A DNA stretch of 64,000 bases. It comes from a candidate division WOR-3 bacterium (GTDB lineage Bacteria; Hydrothermota; Hydrothermia; Hydrothermales; JAJRUZ01). The notes under the pieces were generated by a model. That model made no database searches. It saw nothing but the letters and a program-made list of their open reading frames with translations, and was not told the origin of the DNA. This document shows, piece after piece, positions 3,195 through 35,337 of this stretch. Position 1 is the first letter of the stretch. Every line of letters starts with the position of its first letter. The translations under genes were made by a program, and so were the position numbers. The stretch covers positions 124,001 through 188,000 of the forward strand of contig JBDRZL010000002.1 of assembly GCA_039803925.1 (NCBI GenBank), in the 5' to 3' direction.

Positions 3195-5495
3195 ATGAAA
3201 ACTCTCAACCAAAAAGACCTTGACTATATTAGAAACTTAGAAATAAAAGTTAAAAATATTAAGGGTTTAAAACCCCTTGAAGGATTTATAGGTCAAAAAG
3301 CAGCAGTTAAAAGTATGGAATTCGGATTAAAAATAAGTTCAAAAAGTCACCATATTTTTGTATCAGGCAAACCGGGAAGCGGAAGGACAAGTATGGTGCT
3401 GGAATACGTGTCAAAAATAGCTGAAAAAATTTCTCCTCCACCTGATGTTATATATGTGTTTTCACACGAAAATCCATTTTCTCCGAAAGCAATATTATTG
3501 GAAAATGGACAAGGTAAAAAATTTAAAAAGGATTTTGAAGATGCTATAAATGAAAGTCTCGAAGAAATAAAAGAAATTACAAAAAAAAGGGAATTTAATG
3601 AAGCAAAGGAAAAAATTTTTAAAAATTTATTAAGGCAAAGGGAAAATATCCTTAATAAAATCTATGGGAAAGCGAGGGAACTAAATATTCTCATAAAAGC
3701 AAAAGAAAACGGTTTTGACTTATTCCCTCTATTAAAAGGCAAAGTCTTAACACCAGAAGAGTATTCGGAGCTCACTCAACCGGAGAAAGAAGAATTTGAA
3801 AAGAAATTTGAAGAAATAAGAAGGGAAATTGCCTTAAGGGTTTCTGAAATAGAAAAAATAAACGAAGATTTTAAAGAAAAAATAAGAAATTTACTATCAG
3901 AGTTCGGAGCAAAAACTTTATTAACTATTTTTCCACCTTTAATTGGAAAATATCTAAATAATGAGGACATTATAAAATATGTAAAAAATTCAGTACAGGA
4001 TATTTTAGAAAATTTAGACTATATAACTTCAAAACCCGATGAAGCCTATTCCTTTTTTAAAGAAAAATATAAAGTTCACCTTTTTGTGGATAATTCAAAT
4101 CAGAAAGGTGCTCCAATTGTTCTTGAAACTCACCCAACCCTTTCAAGAATAATAGGAAGAATTGAAAGAGTTCTTGAAAATCCAACACTTGATTTTTCTG
4201 GAATAATACCAGGTGCTTTTCACAGAGCAAATGGAGGTTTCTTAATTATTCCTGCTGAAGAACTTTTAAAAATTGAACCAGCTTACACCTTTATGAAATG
4301 GACTTTAAAATCAGGAAAAATTTTAATTGAAAATTTATCAGAAGAGGAAAATATCCACACAACCAAAACCATAAAGCCAGAGCCAGTCCCTTTTAGCGGA
4401 AAGGTGATTCTTATAGGAACTCCCTATACTTTTTTCCACTTAAAGGAAAATGATCCTGATTTTAACGAATTATTTAAAGTCCATATAGAATTTAAGACTG
4501 TTATGGAAAAAAATCAAGAAAATTTGACTGATTATTTAAGATTTATAAAAACTTTCTGTGATAAAGAAAAACTTTTATATCCAGATATAAAGTCAATTAA
4601 AAAAATTTTGTGGTATTCTTCAAGGCTCGCAGAAAATCAAAACAAACTTTCAACAAATTTTGGAGCAATATGTGACCTTTTAAGGGAAGCAAATTTCCTT
4701 GCTAAAAGTGAAAATAAAAAGGAAATAAAAGAAAATCATGTGAGGGAAATTATTAAAAATAGATTTAAAGAAACTGAAATTGAAGAAACATATTTTGAAT
4801 GGATTAAAAAAGGAATAATTCAAATTGATTTTGAAGGTAAAAAGGTTGGAACAATAAACGGACTTACTGTTCTTACTTATGGACAAATAGTGTTTGGAAG
4901 ACCAGTCAGGATAACTGCAACATGCTCAGCAGGTAAAGAGGGAGTAATAGATATTGAAAGGGAAGCTGAATTATCCGGTCCTATTCATACAAAAGGAACA
5001 CAGATATTAAGAGGTTATCTTGGGTATAAATACGGACAAAATTTTCCTATTTATATGACAGCAAGAATTGTTTTCGAACAAACCTATGAGGGTGTAGAAG
5101 GGGACAGCGCATCTCTTGCAGAACTTCTTGCAATAATATCATCTCTTTCAGAATATCCTATTTACCAAAACTGTGCAGTAACTGGTTCTATAAATCAATT
5201 TGGAGAAGTTCAGGCAGTTGGTGGATTAAATGAAAAAATTGAAGGAATTTATAGAGCTCTAAAATATAAAGAATTTAAAGGAAAATTTAAGGTAATAATT
5301 CCTGAATCAAATATAACAAATCTCTGTCTTCAGGACGAAGTTCTTGAGTTTATAAAAAGAGGTAAAATAGAGATTATAGCAGTTAAAAATATTGATGAAG
5401 CGATAAGAATAGTTTTTAACAAAAATCCTCAAACTGTTCACGAAAAAGTTCTCTCAAAACTTAAAAAATATTACAAAATTTTAAAATCAGAATAA
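3195..5495 (+). CDS. Lon-like protease with degenerate AAA domain (AAA_32/Lon C family)
   Basis: 766 residues. The N-terminal AAA-like part has GKPGSGRTS at residues 58-66, with Arg where the Walker A lysine should be. The Walker B region reads GGFLIIPAEELL, lacking the usual Asp-Glu after the strand. A helical insert fills residues ~110-260. The C-terminal Lon protease domain is intact: catalytic Ser638 in EGDSASLAE and Lys681 in GGLNEKIEG, spaced 43 residues apart as in E. coli Lon. The protein should therefore be a Ser-Lys peptidase whose ATP dependence is doubtful. Its stop overlaps the next start as TAATG. A TATAAA about 10 nt before the ATG suggests a very short leader. Confidence 0.88.
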   Translation: MKTLNQKDLDYIRNLEIKVKNIKGLKPLEGFIGQKAAVKSMEFGLKISSKSHHIFVSGKPGSGRTSMVLEYVSKIAEKISPPPDVIYVFSHENPFSPKAILLENGQGKKFKKDFEDAINESLEEIKEITKKREFNEAKEKIFKNLLRQRENILNKIYGKARELNILIKAKENGFDLFPLLKGKVLTPEEYSELTQPEKEEFEKKFEEIRREIALRVSEIEKINEDFKEKIRNLLSEFGAKTLLTIFPPLIGKYLNNEDIIKYVKNSVQDILENLDYITSKPDEAYSFFKEKYKVHLFVDNSNQKGAPIVLETHPTLSRIIGRIERVLENPTLDFSGIIPGAFHRANGGFLIIPAEELLKIEPAYTFMKWTLKSGKILIENLSEEENIHTTKTIKPEPVPFSGKVILIGTPYTFFHLKENDPDFNELFKVHIEFKTVMEKNQENLTDYLRFIKTFCDKEKLLYPDIKSIKKILWYSSRLAENQNKLSTNFGAICDLLREANFLAKSENKKEIKENHVREIIKNRFKETEIEETYFEWIKKGIIQIDFEGKKVGTINGLTVLTYGQIVFGRPVRITATCSAGKEGVIDIEREAELSGPIHTKGTQILRGYLGYKYGQNFPIYMTARIVFEQTYEGVEGDSASLAELLAIISSLSEYPIYQNCAVTGSINQFGEVQAVGGLNEKIEGIYRALKYKEFKGKFKVIIPESNITNLCLQDEVLEFIKRGKIEIIAVKNIDEAIRIVFNKNPQTVHEKVLSKLKKYYKILKSE

Positions 5496-6343
5496 TGGGA
5501 TATATAAGTTTATTTGACCCTTTTAAAGATGGTCTCTGTACCTGTGAAAAAAAATATACCATCAATCCCTATACAGGTTGTAATCACAGATGCAGATACT
5601 GTTATATAACAAGTTATATAAGAGATGGATTCAAATTAAGATTAAAAAAAAATTATGTTGAGATTATAAAAAGGGAAATTAAAAAAATAAAAAATGTTTA
5701 TCCTTTCAACCTTTCCTCTTCCTCTGACCCTTATCCAGAAATTGAAAAAAAATTACTTTTAACAAGGAAAACCCTTATTCTATTAAAAGAAAAAAATTTT
5801 AAAGTTTCAATAATAACAAAGTCACCACTTGTTTTAAGGGATATTGATATACTTAGAGAAATGAACTCCTTTGTATCTTTTACAATTACCCATTATTCAG
5901 ATGAAATTTCAAGGAAAGTTGAACCATTTGCACCACCTGTTAGTGAGAGAATAAAAGCAGCAGGAAAATTAATAAGGGAAGGAATAAAAGTTTGTATAAG
6001 AATAGATCCGGTTATTCCTGGATACAATGATAAAAAGGATATAGCTTGTAAAATTTTAAAAAATCTTAATGGAGTTTTTATGGTTGTTTTTTCAACATAT
6101 AAAGCAAAACCGGATAATTTTTTAAGAATGAAAGAGATATTTCCTCATTTAGAAAATTTACCATGGGAAAAAAAGAAAGTAAGGGGTTATAGGTATTTAA
6201 GCTATGATTTTAGAAGAGAAATTCTTGAAAAACTTGTAAAAGAAGCAAAAAATTTTTGTGAAAAAATTGGATTATGCAGGGAAGATTTACCGGATTTAAA
6301 AAATACAAAATCCTGTGACCCTGTTTTTGAGTTAAATCTTTGA
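5495..6343 (+). CDS. Radical SAM protein, spore-photoproduct-lyase-like family
   Basis: 282 residues with the radical SAM cluster motif near the N-terminus: NPYTGCNHRCRYCYITSY (Cys spaced x3, x2), which binds the [4Fe-4S] cluster that cleaves SAM. Following parts fit the SPL/PA0069-like family: SSSSDPYPEIEKK, ITKSPLVLRDIDIL, and RIDPVIPGYND. Additional cysteines near the C-terminus (FCEKIGLCRED, KSCDP) could bind metal but are unproven. Translation is coupled to the Lon-like gene through TAATG. Family members are often annotated SPL-like without a proven substrate, so I make no claim of DNA repair. Confidence 0.8.
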   Translation: MGYISLFDPFKDGLCTCEKKYTINPYTGCNHRCRYCYITSYIRDGFKLRLKKNYVEIIKREIKKIKNVYPFNLSSSSDPYPEIEKKLLLTRKTLILLKEKNFKVSIITKSPLVLRDIDILREMNSFVSFTITHYSDEISRKVEPFAPPVSERIKAAGKLIREGIKVCIRIDPVIPGYNDKKDIACKILKNLNGVFMVVFSTYKAKPDNFLRMKEIFPHLENLPWEKKKVRGYRYLSYDFRREILEKLVKEAKNFCEKIGLCREDLPDLKNTKSCDPVFELNL

Positions 6344-25965: not shown

Positions 25966-27075
25966 TTAAACCAAAGATTTTAAAAAATTATAAAGTTTTT
26001 CTGCAATTACCTCATAGGTAAAATTCTCCTTAACCCTTTTAAAACCCTTTCTTATAAGCTCATCTCTCAGGGTTTTGTCAAGATATAACCTTTCCATACA
26101 TCTAAAAAGTTCTTCTGAATCACCTTCTTTAAACAAAAGACCTGCATCTCCTATTACCTCAGGAATCGCACCTGAATCAGAACCAATAACTGGAACACCT
26201 CCTGCCATTCCTTCTACTAAAACTCTACCAAACTGCTCCTTCCACCCTTTTCCTGTAAGAGAAGGAAGAATAAGAAAATCAATTGATTTATAAACTGAAT
26301 AGACCTCTTCATGAGATATATAAGGTAACATGTAAAAATTAACTTTTTTTGATATTAATAGATTTTTAATATTTACCCTCTCTTTACCCTCACCAACTAA
26401 AAGAAGTGTACCCTTTTTATATTTTTTATAGAATTTTTCAAAAGCATCTATCAAAAGATAAACACCTTTAATTTTTATGAGTCTCCCAATATAGGCAAAT
26501 ATTGGTTTTTCTAAAGTTTCTAAAATTTCAATTTTTTTAGATTTATTAAATTTAAAAGGGTCTACTCCAAGGTAAAATCTAAAAATTTTTTTATTGTAAC
26601 CCCATTTTCTTAAAACTACTTCTGCCTCCTTTGAAAGTGCAAGTGCCCCTTTTGATCTCTTAAAAACATAATTTTGCATTTTTCTAATTGGAGTTGGAAA
26701 ATTTTTATAAATATTCTGAGCACTGAAAAATACAAAGGGCACTTTTTTAAAAAGAAGGGAGAATTCAAAGGTTGAAGTTGAGTAACTTTCTTCAAGAAAA
26801 ATAACAAAATCAGGTTTTTTTAACTTTATCTCTTTTAAATAAAAGGAAAAAAAGAATTGAAATTGAATATTTTTTAAAAAAAACCAATTTAAAGGTATAA
26901 TCTCAACACCTTCTTCAACTATTTTTTTCCTCAATAAAGGTTTTTCACCAAGATCACCCCTCCATGTATGGGGAACAAAAATTTTAATATTTTTTATATA
27001 TTTTCTTAAATAAAAGAATTGTTCCCTATTTCTCCTATGTAAGGATGCGTGATTAAAAATAAAAAGGCTCTCTAT
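25966..27075 (-). CDS. GT4-family glycosyltransferase with apparent ATA start
   Basis: About 369 residues. C-terminal donor-binding domain: PIFAYIGRLIKIKGVYLLID, LLLVGEGKER, SYDFLILPSL-like patch, EQFGRVLVEGMAGGVPVIGS and SGAIPEVIGDAGLLF (the E-x7-E retaining motif). The first in-frame ATG/GTG/TTG is TTG 26934, which would delete the first ~47 residues. Those residues are clearly part of the protein (SLFIFNHASLHRRNREQFF, VPHTWRGDLGEKPLL). The likely start is ATA 27075, overlapping the pilQ stop as TAATA, the counterpart of TAATG couplings elsewhere here. A sequencing frameshift is the alternative. Confidence 0.82.
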   Translation of the reverse strand: MESLFIFNHASLHRRNREQFFYLRKYIKNIKIFVPHTWRGDLGEKPLLRKKIVEEGVEIIPLNWFFLKNIQFQFFFSFYLKEIKLKKPDFVIFLEESYSTSTFEFSLLFKKVPFVFFSAQNIYKNFPTPIRKMQNYVFKRSKGALALSKEAEVVLRKWGYNKKIFRFYLGVDPFKFNKSKKIEILETLEKPIFAYIGRLIKIKGVYLLIDAFEKFYKKYKKGTLLLVGEGKERVNIKNLLISKKVNFYMLPYISHEEVYSVYKSIDFLILPSLTGKGWKEQFGRVLVEGMAGGVPVIGSDSGAIPEVIGDAGLLFKEGDSEELFRCMERLYLDKTLRDELIRKGFKRVKENFTYEVIAEKLYNFLKSLV

Positions 27076-28760
27076 TACTCTGTTATTATATTTGGGGTTA
27101 TAAATATCACAATTTCCCTTTCTTCAACAGAACCTGTTCTTCCACCAAAAAGAGCTCCAATCAGAGGTATATTTTTCAATATAGGAATACCACTTGAGGC
27201 TCTTGATCTTTTAGTACTTACAAGACCACCTATAACAGCTGTTTCACCGTTACCAAGCAAAACCCTTGTCTCAGCCTCATTTGTAAGAATTGTAAGCTGT
27301 CCTGTAGGAGTTGGCTCACCTGCCTGAGACACCTCAGTCTTTAAGTCAAGAGTTACCTGGTTCTGGGAATTTACATGTGGTGTAACTTCAAGTTTTATAC
27401 CAACATCTACAAGCCTTGTTATTGGGTTACCACCAACATCAGTAGTTATAAAGGGTATTTTAACTCCACCAATTATTTTTGCTTGTTTGTTATCAGTAAC
27501 AGTAATTTTAGGAGAGGATATAACTCTCGCAAATTCTTCAGACTCAAGAGTGGCAAGTATTGTAAAAAGGTCAGTTTGAGGTGATAAATAACCAACAGTA
27601 AATCTTAAACCAGGAGCTGCGGGTAAAGTTACAGCTCCAGCTTCAGCAAAACCGGTTCCTTCTGGTCCAGGTTCAGAAGGAGATTCACTTGGATTCCTAC
27701 CAATATAACCTTGCTGTGAAGGGATTCCCTGGACTATTCCAGTATATCTTCCTCCCCATTTTATTCCAAGTTCTTTTAACTTTCTTGTATTAATCTCAAC
27801 AATCCTTGCTTCTATTGCGACTTGTGGTGTTTTTACATCAAGAGATTTAATAATCTGCTCCACTTTTTGCTGTATATCCTCAATATCAGTTACAATAACT
27901 GAATTTGTATGTTCATCTTTTTCTATTCTGCCTCTCTCTGTTAAAAGTTTTTGAAGTGATGTTGAAACCTCATCAGGTTTTGTAAATTCAAGCTTATAAA
28001 TTCTTGTTACAAGAGGTTTTAAAAGCTGTGCTTCCTGTTCAGCCTTCCTTCTCTCTATTTCTTCCCTTTTTAGCTTATCAGGAGGAGCAATTCTCAAAAC
28101 ACCATTTTCTTCAACATAAGATAATCCAACTGTTTTCAAAACAAGTTCAAGAGCAGTCCTCCATGGTATATTGTTAACCATAACAGTAACCTTTCCTTTT
28201 ACATCAGTTGTATAAACCACATTTAAACCAACATATTCAGCAATACCATTAATAACAGTAACTATATCTGCATTTTCAAGATTAAGTGAAATTCTCGATT
28301 CACCCGGTTTAATAGGAGAAGGTACAGTAGAAGTAACAGTTTTTTCTTCAATTTCAGCCGTGAATTCAGGTTTTCCTTCCTTTAAGGTAAAAATACCTTC
28401 AGAACCACCCGTATTTAATAGATAAAAAGAAATTCCCTCAGATGTTCTTACATCATAACTTTCAAAGGTAGAAGTGGTATATAAAAAAATTCTTGTCAAA
28501 GCAACACGTTGAAAGGTTTCAAGTGTAATTTTATCGATTCCTGCCCTATTTATTACATAGGAACCAGGTGCAATCATTGTTTTATTGGTATGAATATCAA
28601 GAGCTATAACATTTGAAGTTGGTTTAAATACTGTATAAGAAACATCTTCTGGAACAAGTATAGTAACTATAGTATTTGTCCCCTCACCCTGTATTCTTAT
28701 ATCACTTATTTGAGCAAATAAAGAAAATACAAGAATTAAATTTAAAATAAATTTATACAT
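27075..28760 (-). CDS. pilQ: PilQ-like secretin (AMIN-STN-secretin)
   Basis: 561 residues with a signal peptide (MYKFILNLILVFSLFAQ). An AMIN-like domain occupies ~20-130, the STN domain ~165-230 (ENADIVTVINGIAEYVGLNV), then a NolW/N-domain (RIYKLEFTKPDEVSTSLQKL), and the outer-membrane secretin domain from ~320 (VAIEARIVEINTRKLKELGI) to the C-terminal hallmark GIPILKNIPLIGALFGG. This would be the outer-membrane pore for type IV pili or a related secretion system. No other pil genes are in the window. It is 13 nt after a lipoprotein gene and coupled to a glycosyltransferase. Confidence 0.9.
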   Translation of the reverse strand: MYKFILNLILVFSLFAQISDIRIQGEGTNTIVTILVPEDVSYTVFKPTSNVIALDIHTNKTMIAPGSYVINRAGIDKITLETFQRVALTRIFLYTTSTFESYDVRTSEGISFYLLNTGGSEGIFTLKEGKPEFTAEIEEKTVTSTVPSPIKPGESRISLNLENADIVTVINGIAEYVGLNVVYTTDVKGKVTVMVNNIPWRTALELVLKTVGLSYVEENGVLRIAPPDKLKREEIERRKAEQEAQLLKPLVTRIYKLEFTKPDEVSTSLQKLLTERGRIEKDEHTNSVIVTDIEDIQQKVEQIIKSLDVKTPQVAIEARIVEINTRKLKELGIKWGGRYTGIVQGIPSQQGYIGRNPSESPSEPGPEGTGFAEAGAVTLPAAPGLRFTVGYLSPQTDLFTILATLESEEFARVISSPKITVTDNKQAKIIGGVKIPFITTDVGGNPITRLVDVGIKLEVTPHVNSQNQVTLDLKTEVSQAGEPTPTGQLTILTNEAETRVLLGNGETAVIGGLVSTKRSRASSGIPILKNIPLIGALFGGRTGSVEEREIVIFITPNIITE

Positions 28761-33471: not shown

Positions 33472-33966
33472 ATGAAGGGTAAAGATACAAGGAGTTATAT
33501 TTATAAATTAAAAGATCCGTATATGGATAAAAATCTATATGTGGATCCCACAACTTGTCCCACTTGTGGTCTTGTTTACCACAGAAAAAGATGGATCAAT
33601 AATCCTGAACTTTTGAAGGAATTGAAAGGAAACCATAAAGAAATACAACAGAAAGAATGTCCTGCTTGTAGAAAAATAAGGGATAAATATCCTCTTGGAA
33701 TTGTAGAAATTTTTGGTGATTTTGTGGAGCAAAAAAACGAAGAAATTCATTCAAGAATAAAACATATTGCAGCTGAGGAGTTTACTCATAACCCCCTTGA
33801 GAGAATAATGATTGTAAAAAATGAAAAGAATAGGATAATTATTGAAACTACAACAGAACATCTTGCAGAAAAAATAGGTAAAAAAATAGCAAAAACTTTT
33901 AATAAAAAAGTAAAAATAAGTTTTTCAGACACTGAGAAATTTGTTAGAGTTTTTGTAAGTGATTAA
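33472..33966 (+). CDS. BCAM0308/NMD3-like zinc-ribbon protein
   Basis: 164 residues. Two CxxC knuckles, TTCPTCGLVYHRKRW (Cys-x2-Cys) and ECPACRKIRDKYPLGIVEI, give a four-cysteine zinc ribbon similar to the N-terminal part of archaeal/eukaryotic NMD3 and to bacterial BCAM0308-family proteins. The second half (IIIETTTEHLAEKIGKKIAK, KVKISFSDTEKFVRV) is an alpha/beta domain. Function in bacteria is not established. It has a Shine-Dalgarno and its own promoter, and is 17 nt from DUF502, probably co-transcribed. Confidence 0.7.
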   Translation: MKGKDTRSYIYKLKDPYMDKNLYVDPTTCPTCGLVYHRKRWINNPELLKELKGNHKEIQQKECPACRKIRDKYPLGIVEIFGDFVEQKNEEIHSRIKHIAAEEFTHNPLERIMIVKNEKNRIIIETTTEHLAEKIGKKIAKTFNKKVKISFSDTEKFVRVFVSD

Positions 33967-33983
33967 AAAGGGAGAGTAAGAAA

Positions 33984-34616
33984 ATTAAAAAGTATCTTAT
34001 AACGGGTATTGCTTCACTTTTTCCTATTTTTGTAACTTTATATATTCTCTATATTATAATAAAGTTTGCTGGAACCAATATTGGAAATTTTTTTGTAAAG
34101 ATAGGGATTCTAAGAACAGAAAATGTTTTTGTTTCAACCCTTTTTGGACTAATTTTTTCTTTTATATTTATTTACCTTGTTGGTTTTTTTGTCACAACAT
34201 TAATAGGTAAAAGAATATTTGAGTATGGGGAAAATTTTTTAGTAAAACTTCCTTTAATAAGAGGTTTTTATTCTGGAGCAAAAAAACTAACTGATGCTAT
34301 TTTTTCCCAGAAAACAGCCTTTAAAAAGGTTATCTTTGTAGAATTTCCAATGGAAGGACATTATACAATAGGTTTTGTAACTTCTGATAAAAAATGGGAA
34401 ATTAATGGTAAAAAGTTTGTAAATATCTTTATACCAACAACTCCGAACCCCACAAGTGGATGGTATTTAATAGTCCCGGAAGACAAAATTTTTTATTTAG
34501 AACTCTCCATAGAAGAGGCCTTAAAAGCAATTGTTTCAGCAGGTATAGTTTTGCCTGAAAAAAAAGATATATACAATCTTTTTAAAGAATATGTTCAAAA
34601 TATTCAAAAGAAATAA
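33984..34616 (+). CDS. DUF502-family membrane protein with apparent ATT start
   Basis: 210 residues with two membrane helices (LITGIASLFPIFVTLYILYI and VSTLFGLIFSFIFIYLVGFF), then a cytosolic domain with VKLPLIRGFYSGAKKLTDAI, EFPMEGHYTIGFVTSD, TTPNPTSGWYLIVPEDKIFY and SIEEALKAIVSAGIVLP, all characteristic of DUF502. No ATG/GTG/TTG exists between the upstream in-frame stop (TGA ~33962) and ATG 34350, which would remove the helices. ATT 33984 sits 9 nt after GGGAG and gives the expected N-terminus (x-KKYLITG). Overlaps the next gene by 26 nt. DUF502 function is unknown. Confidence 0.82.
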   Translation: MKKYLITGIASLFPIFVTLYILYIIIKFAGTNIGNFFVKIGILRTENVFVSTLFGLIFSFIFIYLVGFFVTTLIGKRIFEYGENFLVKLPLIRGFYSGAKKLTDAIFSQKTAFKKVIFVEFPMEGHYTIGFVTSDKKWEINGKKFVNIFIPTTPNPTSGWYLIVPEDKIFYLELSIEEALKAIVSAGIVLPEKKDIYNLFKEYVQNIQKK

Positions 34617-35337
34617 AAAGGAAAAATTTACTGAAAAGGAAAATATAGAAGATTTCATAGAAGGAATCAAAAAACTATCTGAAAAAAGGGTACAGGAAGT
34701 TATGATACCAAGAATAGATATGGTATGTGTCAGCCATGAGGACACAATAAGTGAAGCCTTAAAGATATTTAAAAAATATCCTTTTTCAAGAATGCCTGTA
34801 ATTAAAGAAAAAAAGGATGAAGTAATAGGTATATTATTTTTTAAAGAAATTTTACTTATGGATCCATCAGAGTATAGTAAAAAGAAAGTTACAGAAGTCA
34901 TGAAAGCTCCTTATTACTTTCCAGAAAATAAAAATGCTCTTGAAGCTTTAAAGGAAATGAGAAACAAAAGAGTGCATTTTGCACTTGTTGTTGATGAATT
35001 TGGAAATGTAACCGGACTTATAACTCTTGAAGACCTCGTTGAAGAAATAGTAGGTGAAATAGTTGATGAGCTCGACCGTGATATAATTATAAAGCCTCAA
35101 AAAATTAAAGATGGCTATATAATACCTGGAAGAATGCCTATTGATGAACTTTCTAATTTAATTGATATAGAAAATTATGATGAGAATGAAGTTTTAACAG
35201 CTGCAGGTTATATAATCGAAAAAATAAAAAGAATCCCGGAAAAAGGAGAAAAAATAAAAATTGGTAAATATTTATTTGAAATTCTTGATGCCTCAGAATC
35301 AAGAATAAATAAAATAAAAATCACAAAAATAAGTTAA
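34591..35337 (+). CDS. CorC/HlyC-type CBS-domain protein
   Basis: 248 residues without membrane helices. Two CBS domains: VQEVMIPRIDMVCVSHEDTI through VIGILFFKEILLM, and VTEVMKAPYYFPENKNALEA through ALVVDEFGNVTGLITLEDL; then EEIVGEIVDELD leading to the C-terminal CorC_HlyC domain (YIIPGRMPIDELSNLIDIEN). The soluble CorC form is linked to magnesium/cobalt handling or membrane-protein regulation; no CNNM membrane part is fused. CBS pairs usually bind adenosine nucleotides. It overlaps DUF502, a common neighbour pairing of unknown meaning. Confidence 0.88.
   Translation: MFKIFKRNKKEKFTEKENIEDFIEGIKKLSEKRVQEVMIPRIDMVCVSHEDTISEALKIFKKYPFSRMPVIKEKKDEVIGILFFKEILLMDPSEYSKKKVTEVMKAPYYFPENKNALEALKEMRNKRVHFALVVDEFGNVTGLITLEDLVEEIVGEIVDELDRDIIIKPQKIKDGYIIPGRMPIDELSNLIDIENYDENEVLTAAGYIIEKIKRIPEKGEKIKIGKYLFEILDASESRINKIKITKIS

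Follow-up and report, generated by a model that had tools for sequence, protein, structure and literature searches.

Non-canonical start codons in bacteria

Translation of Escherichia coli pcnB begins at an AUU codon under the control of IF3. The same codon, likewise IF3-controlled, starts E. coli infC; very few bacterial non-canonical starts are characterised, and start prediction assumes ATG, GTG or TTG (PMC5472188). Streptomyces sigR has a GTC start with AGGAGGTG, which is conserved and repressed by IF3, the codon being GTC in 32 of 34 species and GTT in 2 (PMC5472188). For S. aureus, four non-canonical start sites are described. The AUU start of cvfC1 and the AUA starts of ccpN and infC have strong, extended Shine-Dalgarno (SD) sequences, and those of cvfC1 and ccpN are conserved in relatives; activity from AUU and AUA starts is about 10% of that from AUG, although ccpN attains up to 30% when cells grow in rich medium (PMC13009471).

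The gene considered here encodes a DUF502 membrane protein of a candidate division WOR-3 bacterium (genome G000). By the window we mean the whole stretch of 64,000 nucleotides analysed (G000:C2:124001-188000), and positions are counted within it unless a contig is named. The gene shows what marks conserved non-canonical starts: no canonical codon is available, the same alignment column is used in 4/4 family genomes, and a strong SD (−9.3 to −12.4 kcal/mol) lies 6–11 nt upstream. With E. coli infC and pcnB it shares the AUU start, but the gene functions are unrelated; E. coli infC starts with AUU while infC of this WOR-3 family starts with ATG, and the IF3 control described is that of the E. 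coli cases. Like cvfC1 and ccpN, it combines AUU or AUA with a strong SD, in a different phylum and in different genes. Its codon, however, varies between ATT and ATA within one family, and it is known from sequence whereas output was measured in S. aureus. The likeness to sigR lies in a non-canonical codon behind a strong conserved SD; the differences are the GTC/GTT codon, the regulatory product and the IF3 repression shown for sigR. Conserved near-cognate starts with strong SDs are of an already known kind, and DUF502 is a new example from WOR-3. A literature search on near-cognate starts, covering sources other than subscription journals and preprints, gave no WOR-3 title among the matches listed; pairing WOR-3 with start codon in the same scope returned only a title on mercury methylation genes.

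The DUF502 frame and its start site

The gene was identified by a profile search as the sole PF04367 match in the genome (100.4 bits, cut-off 23.8); we take the family to comprise relatives of plant COV1. The profile covers residues 57–157 only. Since the match begins at residue 57, the Pfam boundary is unusable as proof of the start, which has to be fixed from relatives. The features of the locus are as follows.

33472-33966, + strand: NMD3-like gene upstream of DUF502, with its stop TAA at 33964-33966 (PF04981, 34.1 bits, cut-off 24.9)
33960-33962, + strand: TGA closing the DUF502 frame upstream, from frame reading
33970-33974, + strand: Shine-Dalgarno GGGAG, 9 nt before the ATT
33984-33986, + strand: proposed DUF502 start codon ATT, aligned with ATT, ATT and ATA in G001, G002 and G003
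33984-34616, + strand: gene for the DUF502 membrane protein (210 codons, then the stop TAA)
34350-34352, + strand: ATG, first canonical in-frame codon of DUF502; a start there deletes 121 residues that align with relatives
34591-35337, + strand: downstream gene for a protein with CBS and CorC_HlyC domains, overlapping the DUF502 3′ end

The sequence-only reading had the frame closed by a TGA near 33962, devoid of ATG, GTG and TTG before 34350, and opened by an ATT with GGGAG 9 nt upstream. We found all three as described. From the closing TGA the codons run TGA TTA AAA AGG GAG AGT AAG AAA ATT AAA AAG TAT CTT ATA ACG GGT, and none of those read between 33960-33962 and 34350 is canonical. Counted from the Lys after the ATT, the ATG at 34350 is residue 122 and lies past both N-terminal hydrophobic stretches. 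The claim that a start there would cost both helices was borne out in that the 121 residues removed include the two stretches, which were judged by eye. Read from the ATT, the protein begins with KKYLITGIASLFPIFVTLYILYIIIKFAG, followed by the second hydrophobic stretch, and its translation aligns end to end with four relatives.

From the first base of the NMD3-like stop to the first base of the ATT there are 20 nt. This bacterial gene matching NMD3 sits between DUF502 and a preceding gene that is presumably secA-like, and the C-terminal end of its product is conserved across four family genomes.

The start column in relatives

DUF502 was matched at E ≤ 0.001 in 48 of the 60 relatives searched. 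Five genomes make up the order: G000, its family members G001, G002 and G003, and G004, with DUF502 protein identities to G000 of 98% (G001), 75% (G003), 72% (G002) and 48% (G004). Checking the codon at this position in relatives, as had been suggested, gave ATT in G000, G001 and G002 and ATA in G003, hence a near-cognate codon in 4/4 family genomes, and none of the four has an in-frame canonical codon upstream of that column. The first ATG, GTG or TTG after it stands at residue 122 in G000 and G001, 52 in G003 and 22 in G002. Starting there would remove 121, 121, 51 and 21 residues, respectively; in G002, where the loss is smallest, the codon is a TTG within the first hydrophobic stretch. Relatives with an upstream ATG and a frameshift at the ATT site were also sought, as the case that would speak against this start, and were absent in the family.

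Outside the family the picture differs. In all 26 non-family WOR-3 relatives with loci (L006–L031; column transferred gap-free from the match start), the frame contains a canonical codon at the column or before it; in 6 of them it coincides exactly with the column (5 ATG, 1 TTG). Another aspect of this set is an Ile codon at the column in 6/26 (ATA, ATC, ATC, ATC, ATA and ATT, in the loci L007, L014, L015, L023, L027 and L029), inside frames that start further upstream. Ile at this place alone is thus no mark of a start, and an older Ile codon may later have become the start. A broader control used 80 named loci from 165 confirmed ones (69 cyanobacterial, 11 from WOR-3 or TA06). In 79 of them the open frame has a canonical codon ahead of the match. 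The control is weak, given that such a codon counts wherever it stands in that frame, that 3 matches begin only at residues 46–54 and that 11/80 overlap the other WOR-3 set. The sole exception was again the family genome G003: L085 (contig JAJRUZ010000004.1) matches G003:C45 in its sequence around the start. Over these 26 relatives and 80 named loci, ATT or ATA at the column with no canonical codon upstream was seen in the family only.

Coding constraint and spacing to the upstream gene

The 121 N-terminal codons of DUF502 differ from those of G003 at 24, 8 and 61 first, second and third codon positions, and from those of G002 at 35, 10 and 54. By this sequence comparison the segment evolves as coding sequence under constraint. 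The stop of the NMD3-like gene is present in 4/4 family genomes and lies at −20, −21, −20 and −21 nt from the DUF502 start in G000, G001, G003 and G002. With an offset of 20 or 21 nt, differing even between G000 and the 98% identical G001, there is no constant frame between the two genes.

Strength of the Shine-Dalgarno sequence

The 3′ end of the 16S rRNA of G000 carries GGATCACCTCCTTTCT, the usual anti-SD, and SD strength was expressed as the predicted duplex energy of a 17 nt window (−20 to −4) with it. The DUF502 start scored −9.5 kcal/mol in G000; 19% of 275 conserved canonical starts, and 3% of 1000 random genome-sample places, have a duplex at least as strong. The other members gave −12.4 (G001), −9.3 (G003) and −11.7 kcal/mol (G002), and the spacing from SD to start, taken by eye, was 9, 7, 6 and 11 nt in G000, G001, G003 and G002. 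The median of the 275 canonical starts (−2.5 kcal/mol) is close to that of random DNA (−2.3), although these starts were picked automatically and misplaced ones, if any, would lower their SD signal. Strong SDs are consequently conspicuous at near-cognate starts.

Other near-cognate starts in WOR-3

A survey compared 725,081 bases of G000 with 720,000 of G002. It yielded 387 reciprocal pairs, of which 359 were assessed, once 24 that were short or of low identity and 4 with masking had been removed. Genes were flagged when no canonical codon was found where conservation begins; acceptance was by eye, so that false ones are possible, and genes with a chance canonical codon near the start are missed. 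In G000, 28 of the 359 were flagged, and for 19 of these a canonical codon aligns no more than 25 columns away. The remaining 9 comprise 3 accepted genes (DUF502, Omp85 and a glycosyltransferase), 2 without a start call, 1 with a shared GTG, 1 recF-like gene broken in G002 and 2 that look non-coding. In G002, 37 were flagged, 23 were normal and the other 14 comprise 7 accepted, 2 without a start call, 3 non-coding-looking and 2 broken frames; the 7 are the same three genes plus four, one of them weak. The accepted genes of G000 other than DUF502, and the upstream neighbour of one of them, are these.

25966-27075, − strand: group 1 glycosyltransferase gene; the ATA proposed as its start (27075-27073) is the 17th codon of the open frame
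27075-28760, − strand: gene preceding the glycosyltransferase, with one base shared between its TAA (27077-27075) and the ATA, in the manner of a TAATG junction
G000:C2:117235-118947, − strand, outside the window: Omp85 gene (L050), ATT start behind AAGGAAGGTG

At its proposed start the glycosyltransferase has ATA in G000 and G001 and ATT in G002, in TAATA and TAATT junctions whose frames were read for G000 and G002. Its first canonical codon is a TTG at codon 64, no SD was seen at the ATA/ATT start, and at E ≤ 1e-60 the gene had no match in G003 or G004. Omp85 has its ATT behind an SD in 4/4 family genomes, at −7.9 to −11.9 kcal/mol in windows that were set one base too far upstream. This gene overlaps the end of its upstream neighbour, and its ATT codon is thereby constrained by the overlap itself. 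Four further calls in G002 rest on the two-genome alignment: RuvX has ATA where G000 has TTG, a lipoprotein-like gene lacking a Pfam match has ATC behind GAGGAGGAG and TTG in G000, a family 2 glycosyltransferase (GT2) has CTG facing ATG, and a flippase-like gene, the weakest case at −4.6 kcal/mol, has ATA facing TTG. Over the ten near-cognate sites of G000 and G002, 7 have an SD of −7.5 kcal/mol or lower, the exceptions being the two glycosyltransferase sites and the flippase.

The two G000 genes without a start call are a conserved FemAB-like frame at G000:C1:155926-156801 (flagged as C1:155938-156798; Pfam match below cut-off), in which neither G000 nor G002 shows a canonical start or an SD, and a stretch at C1:241837-242295 with no Pfam match. 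On G002:C1, two frames that we take to be dnaK-like and recF-like are broken, possibly by assembly errors.

A second WOR-3 family was examined with G011 against G016 (129 pairs, 114 assessed; 18 and 13 flagged, of which 14/18 and 13/13 were read). At least 2 of the 114 genes have near-cognate starts, ATA in both genomes behind AAGGAGG-type SDs:

L241 (G011:C1) 594-1631, − strand: SpoIID-like gene, ATA start with strong SD, same in G016
L241 (G011:C1) 5102-5881, − strand: TatD gene, ATA start with strong SD, same in G016

Taken together, these cases raise the possibility, advanced here tentatively, that the WOR-3 phylum regularly uses AUU, AUA, AUC and CUG starts in about 1–2% of conserved genes, usually with a strong SD or a stop-start overlap, DUF502 being one fixed case. 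That such use is unusually frequent in WOR-3 is a lead, judged against counts for E. coli and S. aureus that were obtained by other methods.

IF3 and initiator tRNA

In the E. coli precedents the weak codon is read under IF3 control, and an inspection of IF3 for changed discrimination residues had been proposed. The infC gene starts with ATG GGA AGA in 4/4 family genomes (G000–G003), so that classical IF3 autoregulation is not visible there. Among 12 of 13 infC loci, those of the class relatives G006 (L034) and G011 (L036) have ATT behind AAGGAGGT and lack a canonical codon ahead of the conserved part. The IF3 of G000 was aligned with that of 8jsg, which we take to be the E. coli protein; residue numbers were counted by hand, and the role of these C-domain positions is assumed. 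It has K for R112, E for R116, F for R129, K for R131, K for R147 and L for H137, with one extra residue, and keeps R99, K110, R133 and R168. The inspection thus did find several C-domain positions changed, but infC starts with ATG and some changes are shared with class relatives: those at 116 and 129 occur also in G009, which leaves IF3 as cause only a lead. The initiator tRNA was rejected as a cause of near-cognate starts, having a normal stem-loop (GGG-CTCATAA-CCC).

A probably weak start codon in DUF502

The lack of an upstream canonical codon, the ATT/ATA column, the coding constraint, the variable spacer and the SD in 4/4 genomes together argue for the ATT start, and on this comparative ground translation of DUF502 very likely starts at the ATT at 33984. 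The sequence-only reading went further and proposed deliberate use of AUU. Its start is strongly supported, in four of four family genomes with variable offset and an SD in all four, while deliberateness is something that we infer. In favour of it, ATT or ATA persists among relatives in which as many as half of the codons have a changed third position. The mechanism that we propose would run as follows. The ribosome would be recruited by GGGAG and begin with fMet at 33984-33986, the initiator tRNA pairing with the first two bases of the ATT only. As poor starts, AUU and AUA would be rejected by IF3-dependent proofreading, holding DUF502 at low output. The strong SD would offset part of the loss due to the weak codon, and initiation may be assisted by ribosomes that terminate 20 nt upstream, at the end of the NMD3-like gene. 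Selection would retain the weak codon even though ATG is one change away. By analogy with the known cases, we lean slightly towards a low, IF3-limited DUF502 output kept by selection; the joint reading, an ATT start with the GGGAG SD and a weak codon that holds output low and is selected, appears likely.

The other near-cognate genes of the lineage weaken a purely gene-specific regulatory reading, and part of the pattern is maybe a lineage habit. In its full form this would be an ATT start without regulation: WOR-3 ribosomes would discriminate weakly, and AT-rich genomes would drift into ATT or ATA, mostly at strong SDs. We regard this as rather unlikely, though near-cognate starts do recur (3/359 pairs in G000, 7 in G002, at least 2/114 in another WOR-3 family), the four G002 starts (CTG, ATA, ATC and ATA, one weak) that face ATG or TTG in G000 indicate that starts drift, and the IF3 of G000 departs from that of 8jsg at R112, R116, R129, R131, R147 and H137. 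Against free drift, DUF502 has ATG in 0/4 genomes although G003 and G002 differ from G000 in 61 and 54 third positions over 121 codons; in IF3, the class relative G009 also lacks R116 and R129, and the initiator tRNA stem-loop is the usual one.

It is very improbable that the real start lies elsewhere, be it at the ATA/ATT five codons downstream, at an upstream AAG or AGG, or at a CTG in G003. The downstream Ile codon, that of LITG, is indeed also common to the four genomes; its distance from the SD is about 24 nt, however, and its use would lose the conserved KKYL. The upstream AAG and CTG are not common to all four, the CTG of G003 was rejected as it is not shared and precedes its SD, and ATG or TTG stands exactly at the ATT column in 6/26 relatives. 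Finally, a fusion with or frameshift from the NMD3-like gene, suggested by the distance of only 20 nt, is rejected on the offset of 20 or 21 nt, unequal even between G000 and G001, for which no single fusion or fixed frameshift can fit all four genomes, and a pseudogene or sequencing error is as scarcely credible given the agreement of four genomes, the upstream stop in all of them and the N-terminal coding constraint.

The ATT start of DUF502, as its sequence conservation suggests, looks kept and is probably a weak signal, not an error. An annotation restricted to ATG, GTG and TTG would trim 121 residues, both membrane helices included, from the protein. The recurrence of such starts in other genes poses the question of relaxed start discrimination in WOR-3 or throttling of selected genes. 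If WOR-3 does regularly use near-cognate starts, gene finders limited to three codons would truncate or miss such genes. The retention of a non-canonical start in four genomes provides a clear case from an uncultured phylum.
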